The position numbers and the translations under genes were made by a program. The notes under the pieces were generated by a model. That model saw nothing but the letters and a program-made list of their open reading frames with translations. It did not search any database and was not told the DNA's origin. Shown here piece after piece: positions 35,646 through 39,758 of a stretch of 64,000 bases of DNA. The DNA is from an uncultured Bacteroidales bacterium (GTDB lineage: Bacteria; Bacteroidota; Bacteroidia; Bacteroidales; Muribaculaceae). Where the stretch lies: contig CACYQB010000007.1 of NCBI GenBank assembly GCA_902776435.1, positions 62,001-126,000 on the forward strand, written 5' to 3'. Each line of letters starts with the position of its first letter. The stretch's first letter is position 1.

Positions 35646-37706
35646 ATGATTAACCAGCAATTACTGAATCCTAAGAGTATTGTCGTCATTGGCGGCAGCA
35701 ACAACGAGCAAAAGCCCGGTGGCGCTATCGTGCGCAATCTGAAACAAGGCGGTTTCAAGGGTGACCTTTACGTCCTCAACCCCAAGGAGGACGTGGTACA
35801 AGGTATCCAGGCCCATCACGACATGAAGGACCTGCCCAATGCCGACATGGCCATCCTGGTGGTGGCAGCGAAATATTGCCCCGAATATGTTGACTACCTG
35901 ACCGAGCACAAGGGCGTGCGCGCGTTCATTATCATTAGCGCAGGTTTCGGCGAGGAAACCCACGAGGGTGCCATCCTGGAACAGCACATCCTGGACACTT
36001 GCGAGAAATATGGCGCCGCACTCATCGGTCCCAACTGCATCGGCCTGTTGACCACCAATCATCACAGCGTGTTCACGTTGCCCATTCCCGCCCTTAGCCC
36101 CAAGGGTGCCGACTTCATCAGCGGCTCGGGTGCTACCGCCGTGTTCATCATCGACTCGGGCGTGAGCAAGGGCCTGCAGTTCAACAGCGTGTGGTCCATC
36201 GGTAACGGCAAACAGATCGGTATTGAGGACGTGCTGGAATACATGGACGAGCACTTTGACCCCGAGCGTGACTCCAAGGTCAAGCTGCTTTATATCGAGA
36301 ACATCTCTCACCCCGAGCGCCTGCTTAAGCATGCCCGCTCGCTCATCAGCAAGGGTTGCCGCATCGCTGCCGTCAAGTCAGGCTCCAGCGAAAGCGGTAG
36401 CCGTGCCGCATCGAGCCACACGGGTGCCATCGCATCGAGCGATACCGCCGTTGATGCCCTGTTCCGCAAGGCCGGCATCGTGCGCTGCTATTCACGTGAC
36501 CAGTTGACCACCATCGGCTGTGTGCTCACCCTGCCCGAGATGACTGGCCGCAATGTCGCCATCGTTACCCATGCCGGAGGCCCTGGCGTGATGCTGACCG
36601 ACGCCCTCTCCAAGGGCGGCATGAACGTGCCCCTGCTTGATGCCAAGATCGGCGAGGAATTGAAGGCTCAGCTCTATCCCGGTTCATCGGTAGCTAACCC
36701 CATCGACTTCCTGGCCACGGGTACTCCCGAGCACCTGGGCATTTGTATCGATTACTGCGAGAAGCGCTACGACAACGTGGATGCTATCGTGGTGATCTTC
36801 GGTACACCGGGTCTTGTACCCTGCGACGACGCTTACAACGTGCTGCACGAGAAGATGCTCACCTGCAAGAAGCCCATCTTCCCTGTCCTGCCGTGTCTGA
36901 ACATCGCCGGCCGCGAGGTGAAGGAGTTTATTGACAAAGGTCATGTAAACTTTGCCGATGAGGTGGCTCTGGCCGAGGCCTTGATTCGTGTCGCCGACAC
37001 GCCCAAGCCCGCCACCGCCGACAACCTGTGTCCCGAAGTTGACGTGAAGGCCGTTCGTGCCATCATCGACGGCATCAAGGAGGACGGTTACATCAATCCC
37101 GACCATGTACGCGCCTTGCTGCAGGCTGCCGCTATTCCCGTCGTTCCTGAGAAGGTATCGGCCAACCGTGACGAGCTCGTCGCCGCAGCGCGCGAGATGG
37201 GCTATCCCATCGTCGTCAAGGTCGTTGGTCCCGTTCACAAGAGTGACGTGGGTGGCGTGACGCTCAACGTCAAAGACGATGCACAACTGGAAGCCGAATT
37301 CGACCGCATGATGCAGATTCCCGATGCTACCGCCGTGATGATCCAGAAGATGATCAGCGGCACCGAGCTGTTCATCGGTGCCAAGTTTGAGCCCACCTTC
37401 GGCCACAACGTGCTGTGTGGTCTGGGCGGCATCTTCGTCGAGGTGCTCAAGGACGTGCAGTTCGGTCTCGCTCCGCTGTCGCAGCCCGAGGCAGAGCGCA
37501 TGGTTCGCTCCCTCAAGGGTTACAAGATCATCCAGGGCACCCGCGGCAAGCAAGGTCTTGACGAGGCCACCTATGTGAAGATCATCTGCCGCCTCTCGAC
37601 CATGCTCCACTACGCTCCCGAGATCAAGGAAATGGACATCAACCCGCTGCTGGCAGGTCCCGACCACGTCACCGCCGTTGACGCCCGCATCCGCATCGAG
37701 AAGTAA
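35646..37706 (+). CDS. ADP-forming acetyl/acyl-CoA synthetase (fused alpha-beta)
   Basis: A 686-aa protein with a CoA-binding Rossmann domain (SIVVIGGSNNEQKPG), a succinyl-CoA synthetase-like core with the phospho-histidine H258 in ASSHTGAIA, and a C-terminal ATP-grasp domain (about 470-686). This is the one-chain form of the acetate:CoA ligase (ADP-forming). It turns acyl-CoA plus ADP and phosphate into the acid and ATP by substrate-level phosphorylation. The neighbouring Ior genes could supply aryl-acetyl-CoA, so it may be the ATP step for aromatic amino acid fermentation. Acetyl-CoA is the alternative substrate. The protein is complete, with normal ends. Confidence 0.93.
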   Translation: MINQQLLNPKSIVVIGGSNNEQKPGGAIVRNLKQGGFKGDLYVLNPKEDVVQGIQAHHDMKDLPNADMAILVVAAKYCPEYVDYLTEHKGVRAFIIISAGFGEETHEGAILEQHILDTCEKYGAALIGPNCIGLLTTNHHSVFTLPIPALSPKGADFISGSGATAVFIIDSGVSKGLQFNSVWSIGNGKQIGIEDVLEYMDEHFDPERDSKVKLLYIENISHPERLLKHARSLISKGCRIAAVKSGSSESGSRAASSHTGAIASSDTAVDALFRKAGIVRCYSRDQLTTIGCVLTLPEMTGRNVAIVTHAGGPGVMLTDALSKGGMNVPLLDAKIGEELKAQLYPGSSVANPIDFLATGTPEHLGICIDYCEKRYDNVDAIVVIFGTPGLVPCDDAYNVLHEKMLTCKKPIFPVLPCLNIAGREVKEFIDKGHVNFADEVALAEALIRVADTPKPATADNLCPEVDVKAVRAIIDGIKEDGYINPDHVRALLQAAAIPVVPEKVSANRDELVAAAREMGYPIVVKVVGPVHKSDVGGVTLNVKDDAQLEAEFDRMMQIPDATAVMIQKMISGTELFIGAKFEPTFGHNVLCGLGGIFVEVLKDVQFGLAPLSQPEAERMVRSLKGYKIIQGTRGKQGLDEATYVKIICRLSTMLHYAPEIKEMDINPLLAGPDHVTAVDARIRIEK

Positions 37707-37719
37707 TATCACAATCACA

Positions 37720-37744
37720 CCAGGGCAGAGCCCTGGCCCACGCG
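37720..37744 (-). repeat. REP-like palindrome, left copy
   Basis: A 7-bp stem (CCAGGGC with GCCCTGG) and AGA loop at 37720-37736, followed by CCCACGCG. On the minus strand it reads GTGG, one base, hairpin. It is the inverted partner of 37990-38014, with 22 of 25 bases identical. Two of the three differences form one compensatory A-T to G-C pair change in the stem. Confidence 0.85.
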
Positions 37745-37780
37745 ACACGACAACCGCGACGATCGCAACCTGCCTCACAA

Positions 37781-37958
37781 GGCACCGCGACCGCAACCGG
37801 CCCACACGGCACCGCGACCGCAACCGGCCTCACAAGGCACCGCGACCGCAGCCCGCCTCGCAAGGCACCGCGACCGCAACCCGCCTCACAAGGCACCGCG
37901 ACCGCAACCGGCCTCACAAGGCACCGCGACCGCAACCGGCCTCACAAGGCACCGCGAC
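37781..37958. repeat. 28-bp tandem repeat array (about 6.4 units)
   Basis: Six units start at 37781, 37808, 37836, 37864, 37892 and 37920, and a partial unit starts at 37948. The unit begins GGCACCGCGACCGCAACC and ends CTCACAA. The first unit has 27 bp, and internal copies differ at one to three positions. A degenerate unit precedes the first (from about 37753). There are no spacers between units, so it is not CRISPR. Unit number is likely to vary between strains. Confidence 0.9.
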
Positions 37959-37989
37959 GGGATTGTAAGGCATCCCGCATGCAGCCTGT

Positions 37990-38014
37990 CCCGTGGGCCG
38001 GGGCTCTGCCCCGG
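37990..38014 (+). repeat. REP-like palindrome, right copy
   Basis: CCCGTGGG precedes a 7-bp stem CCGGGGC with GCCCCGG and a TCT loop (37998-38014), 17 bp before the RAYT start codon. It shares sequence, in inverted orientation, with 37720-37744. Confidence 0.85.
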
Positions 38015-38030
38015 TTAATCAAGAACCACC

Positions 38031-38990
38031 ATGCCATTGAGTGAAAACAAGCGCCGCTGGCTGGCCGCCCATCCTGAACTGGGGCGTCACCAGTCCATGA
38101 AGCGGAGGCATGACCATCACGATTACCAGTCGCCCTGCATCTACATGGTCACGCTCGCCATCAAGGAAAGGCGGCCACTGCTGGGTACCGTCTGTGGCCC
38201 GGACGACAGCCATTCGCGGCCCTGGTTCAATCCCTCTCCCCTCGGCGACCTCATCGCTCAATGCTGGCGCGAGATACCCCGGTTTTATCCCCAAGTAAGG
38301 CTGCTCGCCCTTCAACTCATGCCCGATCACCTGCACGGCATCATCCATGTGACAGATCGATTGCCGTGCCATCTGGGCCACGTGGTCAACGGCTTCAAGG
38401 TCGGCTGTAATCGGGTTGCCAAAGAAATGTCATTGTCTCCTCTCTGGGAAGAGGGTTACAACGACCGAATCTTGCAGGGCAAGGGACAACTCAATGCCAT
38501 GTTCAAGTACCTGGAAGACAACCCGCGTCGCCTCTGGACCAAACGCAACCACCCGGAATTCTTCAAGACTCAGCAGAAAGTCATGATTGGCGATCAGAGC
38601 GTCACCATCATGGGCAACCGTTTCCTGCTCGACAGCCCCAACAAAGTCGCCGTGAAGTGCCATCTCGACATGACCGAAGAAGAAAAAGAACGCACAATCG
38701 CACATTTCCTAATGATGGCTCAACGTGGAGCCGTACTGGTGTCACCCCGCATCAGTCAGGGCGAGAAAGAGGTGATGGATATGATTCAAGCGGCAGGCTT
38801 CCCATTCATTCAATTGCTCGAGAACGGGTTCTCCCCATATTGGAAACCCGGTGGAGAGATGTTCAACGCCTGTGCCAGCGGCCAGGTGTTGCTTGTAGCC
38901 CCATGGCCCTACCACAGCGACCGCCACACCATCACCCGCGACCAATGCAATCGCCTCAATGACCTGGCGGCGCTTATCTGCCTACAGTAA
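38031..38990 (+). CDS. REP-associated tyrosine transposase (RAYT) with C-terminal extension
   Basis: The first 180 residues are a Y1 HUH domain of the IS200-like RAYT branch. The metal-binding histidines H100 and H102 lie in MPDHLHGIIHV and the likely nucleophile is Y160 in MFKYLEDNPRR. WEEGYNDRIL lies between them. Typical RAYTs end soon after, but this protein continues for about 140 more residues to 319. That part has Rossmann-like alternation (GAVLVSPRISQGEKEVM, FPFIQLLENG, QVLLVAPWP), which I find loosely similar to SLOG/DprA-type folds. REP hairpins stand immediately upstream. RAYTs nick and join REP sequences on single-stranded DNA. Both domains are intact and there is no terminal repeat of a classical IS. 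Confidence 0.88.
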   Translation: MPLSENKRRWLAAHPELGRHQSMKRRHDHHDYQSPCIYMVTLAIKERRPLLGTVCGPDDSHSRPWFNPSPLGDLIAQCWREIPRFYPQVRLLALQLMPDHLHGIIHVTDRLPCHLGHVVNGFKVGCNRVAKEMSLSPLWEEGYNDRILQGKGQLNAMFKYLEDNPRRLWTKRNHPEFFKTQQKVMIGDQSVTIMGNRFLLDSPNKVAVKCHLDMTEEEKERTIAHFLMMAQRGAVLVSPRISQGEKEVMDMIQAAGFPFIQLLENGFSPYWKPGGEMFNACASGQVLLVAPWPYHSDRHTITRDQCNRLNDLAALICLQ

Positions 38991-39130
38991 TACTCCTAAA
39001 AACCATAGTGATGGCGCGCGTTTTGAGGCAAAAAAAGGGGCGAAACGCTGTTCAAAATAATTAATTATTGTTAAATTTCGTGAAATCGCGAGGGTTTTCG
39101 GTCTTTATCAAGGGTAAAGAGGGGAAAAGT
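38991..39130. other. Intergenic region between RAYT and the rplM promoter
   Basis: No gene, repeat or RNA was recognised. It is A/T-rich to mixed sequence, with the rplM promoter at its right end. Confidence 0.5.
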
Positions 39131-39162
39131 TTTGGTGGGGAAAATGAAAAGCAGTACCTTTG
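39131..39162 (+). promoter_or_regulatory. Promoter of the rplM-rpsI operon
   Basis: TTTG (39131-39134), 20 nt, TACCTTTG (39155-39162), a near-perfect match, consistent with strong ribosomal protein expression. Confidence 0.8.
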
Positions 39163-39167
39163 CGCGC

Positions 39168-39275
39168 CGATTATTACCAAAGTAAGAGCCCTTTAGGGCA
39201 ATGTCATGTGGAATTTGGCCGTTCCGCAAGGCGTTGCTTGGGCAATTAACTAACTATTAATTAGGATTTTAAAAA
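39168..39275 (+). promoter_or_regulatory. Putative structured leader of rplM
   Basis: The transcript should carry about 105 nt before the start codon. Small hairpins are visible: GCCC-TTTA-GGGC (39188-39199) and GCC...GGC and TTGC...GCAA pairings at 39215-39245. This could be an autoregulatory ribosomal protein leader. The structure is read by eye only. Confidence 0.4.
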
Positions 39276-39758
39276 GTGGATACTTTAAGTTACAAGACAA
39301 TTTCGGCAAATGCCGAAACCGTTCAAAAGGAATGGGTGGTAGTTGATGCTACCGACCAGATCCTGGGTCGCCTGTGCTCCAAGGTAGCTAAGTTGCTGCG
39401 TGGCAAGTACAAGACCAATTACACCCCGCACGTTGACTGCGGTGACAACGTGATCATCATCAACGCCGATAAGGCCAAGATGACTGGCAAGAAGTGGACC
39501 GAGCACCAGTACGTACGCTATACCGGCTATCCCGGTGGTCAGCGTTTCACTACTCCCGCCGCCCTTCAGGCCAAGAGCGAGAAGAAGAAAGACCTGCGCA
39601 AGGGTATGCACCCCCTGTATCTGCAAGTTCTCAAGGGCATGCTGCCCAAGACCCGTCTGGGTGCCCAGCTGCTCAAGAACGTGCACATCTACAATGGTCC
39701 CGAGCATCCGCACGAGGCCCAGCAGCCCAAAGTTATTGACATTAACAAACTGAAATAA
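39276..39758 (+). CDS. rplM: Large ribosomal subunit protein uL13 (GTG start)
   Basis: The 160-aa product is L13, with the conserved GRLCSKVAKLLRGK and YTGYPGG motifs and the C-terminal VHIYNGPEHPHEAQQP. It starts with GTG, as shown by the Bacteroidales N-terminus (M)DTLSYKTIS. No ATG fits. It is longer than the E. coli protein (142 aa) because of short terminal extensions. It binds 23S rRNA early in 50S assembly. rpsI follows after 5 nt. Confidence 0.97.
   Translation: MDTLSYKTISANAETVQKEWVVVDATDQILGRLCSKVAKLLRGKYKTNYTPHVDCGDNVIIINADKAKMTGKKWTEHQYVRYTGYPGGQRFTTPAALQAKSEKKKDLRKGMHPLYLQVLKGMLPKTRLGAQLLKNVHIYNGPEHPHEAQQPKVIDINKLK

Follow-up and report, generated by a model that had tools for sequence, protein, structure and literature searches.

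A probable RAYT gene with its own family of REP hairpins, and a putative DprA-like tail, in a Bacteroidales genome

The window analyzed here, a stretch of 64,000 nucleotides from an uncultured Bacteroidales bacterium of the Muribaculaceae (assembly GCA_902776435.1; 3.45 Mb in 43 contigs), carries a gene for a Y1 HUH transposase-like protein preceded by two short hairpins in inverted orientation (Table 1). The acyl-CoA-ligase gene upstream of the left hairpin has its stop codon 13 nt before it, and the right hairpin ends 16 nt ahead of the ATG at 38031; the closeness to the HUH gene described in an earlier, sequence-only reading of this DNA therefore stands, with its distance of 17 nt corrected. 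The inverted arms (37719-37747 and 37987-38015) are 29 nt long and 90% complementary, and each contains a 7-bp stem, a 3-nt loop, and a GTGG foot. Compared by eye, the two 25-mers share 22 of 25 positions; of the three mismatches, two belong to a single stem pair that is A-T in one copy and G-C in the other, exactly as that reading had reported. The pair is present on the upstream side only, and no GTGG hairpin occurs in the 450 nt examined on the 3' side. The right neighbor is presumably rplM (50S L13).

Table 1. Coordinates of the features at the locus (positions within the window)
Feature	Position	Strand	Description
Acyl-CoA-ligase-like gene	35646-37706	+	Usual left neighbor of GTGG-type RAYT
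Left candidate REP hairpin	37720-37741	-	GTGGG foot + CCAGGGC-TCT-GCCCTGG
Spacer of inverted REP pair (REPIN-like)	37742-37992	.	251 bp, mostly 28-bp tandem array
Right candidate REP hairpin	37993-38014	+	GTGGG foot + CCGGGGC-TCT-GCCCCGG
Putative RAYT gene	38031-38990	+	319 aa, Y1 HUH transposase-like
HUH motif DHLH	38325-38336	+	H100, H102 invariant in 37/37 aligned members
Tyrosine motif YLEDNP	38508-38525	+	Y160, N164, P165 invariant in 37/37
C-terminal domain	38595-38987	+	Residues 189-319; putatively DprA/SLOG-like
Presumed rplM	39276-39758	+	Right neighbor of RAYT in window; distance varies in relatives

Taken singly, the hairpins are only modestly better than their shuffles. Their fold energies as DNA are -7.7 and -8.9 kcal/mol (z -1.96 each), with 8 and 12 of 200 shuffles equally stable, and an Rfam search gave three matches, all far under their gathering scores. 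The strongest evidence against a chance origin of these predicted structures is comparative, since at least one GTGG hairpin is found near the RAYT gene at all 17 loci examined (L003-L019: the window's own and those of 16 relatives with 72-88% identity). In some relatives hairpins lie on both sides of the gene, and at one locus (L005) each side has an inverted pair. Between the two hairpins of the window, a 28-bp unit repeated 7.1 times in tandem (37760-37958) takes up most of the spacer. Because the matched spacers of REP pairs in five relatives (n = 6) measure 27-62 bp and have similar ends, the array is most simply read as an expansion of a short spacer in the host genome.

The sequence-only reading had tied the REP assignment to the existence of further copies in the genome. 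The exact 11-nt core GGGCAGAGCCC has just two copies in the 3.45 Mb, namely the RAYT-flanking pair, a result that resembled a refutation and was reversed because a search allowing stem and loop changes gave six GTGG copies (reversed-pattern control, 0), four of them solo and dispersed. Further copies thus exist, and they are not abundant.

The protein contains a Y1 HUH core with a class 2 Y..NP motif, formed by DHLH and YLEDNP, whose key residues are conserved in all 37 aligned family members. This invariance fits class 2 of the TnpAY1 classification, which is defined by Y...NP in the available text of PMC6006769 (section 31). Profile scores for the window protein fall below the cut-offs, both for Y1_Tnp (15.8 bits; cut-off 23) and for NF047646 REP_Tyr_transpos (33.9 bits; cut-off 80); across the family, 34 of 37 members match Y1_Tnp at E 5 or better, the best at 1.6e-07. 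Homologues of the window RAYT were detected in 90 of 150 relatives (E 0.001), and single genomes of the genus have up to seven strong matches (E 1e-60). Besides the window's RAYT, the host genome has five paralogues, on C1, C11, C8, C38, and C14, making six RAYT-like loci, a count that leaves out a further C1 match at E 0.04; the paralogues range from 56% down to about 30% identity to the window RAYT. In the plasmids searched with the same protein there was one distant match alone (25% identity over 43% of the query). As a separate observation, the RAYT at L083:6001-6960 carries several tandem near-copies (LWEDGNNDRK...) just ahead of an invariant LWEEGYNDRIL, so that the conserved W segment is amplified in frame.

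In 17 of 19 genomes the GTGG-type RAYT lies close to the ligase gene, to rplM, or to both. The exceptions are G033, where neither occurs on the available stretch, and G087, where the gene is at a contig end. Among 11 intact orthologues (55 pairs) the median dN/dS is 0.095 and the maximum 0.13, values that come from 11 of the 19 orthologues and from a median dS of 0.93, close to saturation. Judged from this ratio of about 0.09, the gene is under purifying selection, although broken orthologues also exist, with in-frame stops in G021, G035, and G087 and a split match in G080. These comparisons show the putative RAYT gene to be mostly fixed at one chromosomal site. They bear directly on the alternative that the locus is a recently inserted, ordinary mobile element of the IS200/IS605 type with subterminal hairpins, which would equally have a Y1 HUH gene with hairpins in its flanks. 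Weak profile similarity to PDB transposases (2xm3 and others, E 0.024-0.16), which are IS200/IS605 members, agrees with such an origin. Against it stand the constant neighbors and low dN/dS, and no near-identical copies are present, the nearest paralogue in the genome being 56% identical. Furthermore, the tyrosine motif is YLEDNP and not the Y...Q that the class rule in the available part of PMC6006769 (section 31) associates with those elements. Consequently, we consider a recent insertion of this kind very improbable.

The hairpins themselves were followed with the pattern GTGGNCCNNGGCNNNGCCNNGG over 101 genomes of the genus, where it matched 176 places in 41 genomes (reversed-pattern control, one match), with 1-16 copies per hairpin-positive genome against 6 in the host. 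The GTGG hairpin was found in all 19 genomes with a GTGG-type RAYT and in 22 of the 82 without one (Fisher, 1.5e-9; counts, p 3e-13), p-values that overstate independence as the genomes are related. Genomes were taken as RAYT-positive when they had a match of at least 70% identity, which includes the fragments in G035, G080, and G087 and the gene of G033 (72%) and leaves out a 35-residue piece in G049; a repeat search of the same 101 genomes with the window protein left the 19 unchanged. Some of the matches in the 22 RAYT-less genomes look like scars, and others like chance. Compensatory change was scored on 150 copies listed of the 176, at the two stem pairs that the pattern leaves free. Both pairs were Watson-Crick in 123 copies, where 1000 shuffles gave 28 on average and 46 at most, and a further 13 copies fit if G-T is accepted; among distinct 22-mers of the copies listed, 48 of 70 were Watson-Crick at both. 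This covariation shows that the predicted structure of the GTGG hairpins is conserved above their sequence. Two arrangements were seen besides these counts: six same-orientation GTGG hairpins (L248 and L249, G075:C18) in a genome that lacks the GTGG-type RAYT, with a 78-bp spacing among three of the six, and three same-orientation hairpins at 46-bp spacing behind a RAYT gene (L006:285-398).

The same data speak to a TIRYT, a tyrosine transposase whose long terminal inverted repeats have no relation to REPs. The two arms do form a 29-nt inverted repeat, and the protein has a large C-terminal domain, as such an element would. However, each arm is a hairpin with a GT[AG]G foot and a covarying stem that is also found alone elsewhere, and Pfam gave no match to an HTH family in the window RAYT or its family. 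Of the alternatives weighed here, this one seems to us the least probable.

The placement of the solo copies opens another possibility, namely that the hairpins serve the upstream gene, as transcription terminators or as 3'-end elements of its mRNA, and are near the RAYT only incidentally. Placement was examined in 14 intergenic, fully paired solo GTGG copies, which remained from 33 hairpins after removal of nine with a non-Watson-Crick variable position, five flanking a RAYT, and five of the remaining 19 that lie inside long ORFs. In 11 of the 14 the stem side is within 35 nt of a gene 3' end, and in nine within 15 nt, while the foot side is near a gene 3' end in one; gene limits were guessed from the longest ORFs, and the sites are not all independent, as some of them are orthologous. 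A role at 3' ends for REPs behind stop codons is possible, because ribosome stalling is reported for E. coli REPs up to 15 nt from a stop codon in the available text of PMC12306157, an analogy that favors the 3'-end explanation. A T-tailed terminator was rejected: a terminator scan of 37400-39300 detected neither hairpin, and by eye the hairpin contexts have no T-run. Moreover, hairpin copies track the presence of the RAYT, the type of foot tracks RAYT relationships, and in another hairpin family of the host (GTRNTG, below) only two of ten dispersed, fully paired copies are near gene 3' ends, with four of the ten at contig ends. An incidental association is therefore improbable in our view, though slightly less remote than a recent insertion; a 3'-end role would in any case be compatible with the RAYT reading.

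Further traces are consistent with a RAYT that has been lost in places. An intact RAYT is missing next to the ligase gene, where a GTGG hairpin lies, in G036, G037, G049, G052, and possibly G064, whose contig stops about 0.7 kb beyond the hairpin. In G049 the site retains the 35-residue RAYT piece and rplM. This fits scars in which the RAYT gene was lost and the hairpins were left behind. Some hairpin copies seem to occupy one and the same site in different genomes, L097 and L101 (by eye) for instance, and these point to a mostly vertical and slow inheritance.

GTGG is one of several feet in the genus. From 136 loci, 130 of them with a RAYT, we obtained 100 distinct proteins longer than 240 aa, the rest being duplicates or short pieces. 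A rule blind to the foot found a repeated foot plus hairpin within 350 nt at 52 of these 100 RAYT loci, and at none of them in any of 20 rounds of dinucleotide shuffling. With six foot classes, set post hoc from the observed data, exactly one class was assigned at 72 loci (null, 0.25 per 100), comprising GTNTTG (24), GTGG (16), CYRTGY (11), GTATTA (10), GTAGTG (9), and GTAATC (2); none of the six was found in the flanks of the other 28. A quick maximum-likelihood tree places the GTGG loci in a single RAYT clade (16 rows, SH-aLRT 99) and the two GTAATC loci in a clade of their own, whereas the remaining classes require three (CYRTGY), four (GTATTA), six (GTAGTG), and 11 (GTNTTG) changes, the last recurring in several clades. 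All seven labels together require 23 changes, where shuffling gives 61.2 on average, and the 72 typed rows alone require eight. Protein and DNA specificity thus appear to have changed together, with the predicted foot type following RAYT relationships.

Presence across genomes gives a similar picture for a second class. The GTATTA hairpin was found in 11 of 14 genomes with its RAYT and in 5 of 87 without it (p 8.5e-9), where the 14 rest on a 72% cut of our own choosing, and this link persists when genomes that have the GTGG RAYT and those that lack it are taken separately (p 0.02 and 0.0001). Non-cognate hairpin and RAYT pairs are associated too, more weakly (odds 17 and 14; p 0.005 and 0.013), and shared ancestry is therefore part of the hairpin-RAYT signal. 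Within the host, the pattern GTRNTGCNNGSCNNNGSCNNG of the GTRNTG family has 18 matches (control, 1), 15 of them fully paired, with five at the paralogues on C1, C8, and C11 and ten dispersed. Four of the six RAYT-like loci of the host have a hairpin of one class, and no hairpin of the six classes was found at those on C38 and C14. A separate observation concerns four copies of one GTAATG hairpin (L119, L121, L124, and L129) near the ends of C10, C11, C16, and C22; each is followed by an identical stretch, intrinsic-terminator-like by eye, within about 100 nt of the contig or stretch end. They perhaps mark the ends of a long repeat, e.g., rRNA operons.

Considering the HUH and Y..NP motifs, the compensatory hairpin changes, and the linkage of hairpin and gene over 101 genomes, the locus is very probably (about 0.85) a domesticated RAYT/TnpAREP with its own REP family, in keeping with the layout that the sequence-only reading had recognized. 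Its neighbors, its tree, and its dN/dS indicate a putative RAYT that is kept vertically and coevolves with its REP. Counting against this are the low copy number, the upstream-only pair, the 28 of 100 loci without any of the six feet, and the Pfam and NCBIfam scores below cut-off, as well as the 11 GTNTTG and six GTAGTG changes on the tree, the 22 of 82 RAYT-less genomes with a match, and the two of 24 fusions outside the genus described below. By analogy with the RAYTs studied in the available text of PMC8266576, the protein would bind the single-stranded hairpin through foot and stem. It might then cut and rejoin the DNA beside an exposed hairpin, for instance on the lagging strand, and the outcome would be that REPs and REP pairs are maintained and occasionally moved.

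RAYT/REP pairs and their coevolution are already known from gammaproteobacteria (PMC2817692). As far as the available texts of PMC2817692 and PMC8266576 describe them, these systems share with ours a Y1 HUH gene with inverted REPs, a GT(A/G)G head followed by a GC-rich hairpin (with a 3-nt loop in Stenotrophomonas REPtron Sm), agreement between REP and RAYT trees, and complementary stem mutations. The window's clade has this GT[AG]G form, and several paralogue classes deviate from it. In contrast to those systems, whose REPs usually exceed 100 per genome according to the available text of PMC2817692, copies are few here, paralogue feet other than GT[AG]G occur in the genus, and the protein, at about 320 aa, has an extra C-terminal domain. 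The expectation that a Bacteroidales unit would extend the known range does not hold, because Bacteroidetes TnpAREP subclasses 2.4 and 2.6 have been published (PMC6006769). Like our locus, these have the class 2 Y..NP motif and flanking secondary structures; unlike it, they are described in the available text with median lengths of 194 and 179 aa, with structures lacking GT[AG]G in 2.6 and long or double-foot REPs in 2.4, where ours are short. The same text gives long C-termini for subclasses 2.1 and 2.3, for which it reports no REPs, and the subclass descriptions available there make no mention of a DprA-like tail. The combination of a length of about 320 aa, a putative DprA-like tail, short REPs, and more than one foot within a genus does not match the PMC6006769 subclasses as the available text describes them. 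The open literature searched for repetitive extragenic palindromic elements in Bacteroidales returned nothing relevant. What looks new is the variety of feet within one genus and the C-terminal domain, two features absent from the sequence-only reading.

These features matter for how RAYTs are understood. Published tests of guide recognition, in the texts available, concern a few gammaproteobacterial proteins and the GTAG head, and one genus with natural protein-hairpin pairs of several feet would make the recognition code readable by comparison. In addition, a gene that stays under purifying selection while its hairpins remain few suggests that RAYTs are retained for reasons beyond REP proliferation alone.

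The C-terminal domain (residues 189-319) is conserved throughout the family, and Pfam gave no consistent match for it. An alignment of its profile with 20 Bacteroidales DprA sequences (usable ORFs from 20 of 25 loci tried) by hhalign scored 31.8 over 115 columns, against at most 20.5 in 60 column shuffles, 20.4 for the reversed profile, and 18.1 for the N-terminal half. With a more diverse DprA alignment (A3) the tail scored 31.1 (100 shuffles, at most 26.2); four unrelated local families reached 12-22 with the diverse alignment and 10-25 with the larger one, and the program's own probability for tail and DprA was 16-27%. In a PDB search DprA accounted for four of the eight matches listed, the top three (E 0.083-0.091) resembling each other and being worth little more than one, and the fourth at E 1.3. 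The tail motifs GN.LL..kvaV..R.T and GAVLVSP align to the DprA region around GTR.T and VSG. This weak but consistent signal suggests that the domain is probably DprA-like; DprA (DNA processing protein A) is a protein of the SLOG/Rossmann type. Unlike DprA, the tail is fused to an HUH nuclease, shorter, and remote, and the host genome has a separate dprA-like gene (C7:137197-137820).

A search with the domain gave matches in 15 of 344 Bacteroidales genomes, the host included, and in 10 of 195 genera. Among the 30 domain loci there is a single fragment; all 29 remaining loci are open frames with an MPDH.H motif before the tail. Because a repeated foot plus hairpin was found in the flanks of only two of 24 RAYT-tail fusions from outside the host genome (L186 and L187), the comparisons demonstrate a link between the HUH-plus-tail architecture and putative REPs within the genus only. 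The role of the tail is conjecture; it might, less certainly than the steps above, bind or pass on single-stranded DNA and, if confirmed, it hints at how a domesticated REP nuclease handles its product. A more ambitious scheme would have the HUH hairpin nuclease and the DprA-like domain couple REP cutting to recombination through RecA-type loading or annealing, with the foot (GTGG, GTAG, GTAT, GTAA, CYRT) switched repeatedly together with the protein and several private REP-RAYT pairs in one genome, as at four of the six RAYT-like loci of the host. We regard this scheme as rather unlikely, and somewhat more so than at first, because most fusions outside the genus have no such hairpins. In the open literature searched, the matches listed gave no apparent link between DprA and RAYTs, and SLOG/DprA together with a transposase led, in the texts available, to jumbo-phage work only.

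At the two loci outside the genus, L186 and L187 (G374 and G285, from other families of the order), the repeated element is a GCGACG-(4 nt)-CGTCGC hairpin with a TCGTGTG-like foot, perhaps another cognate family.
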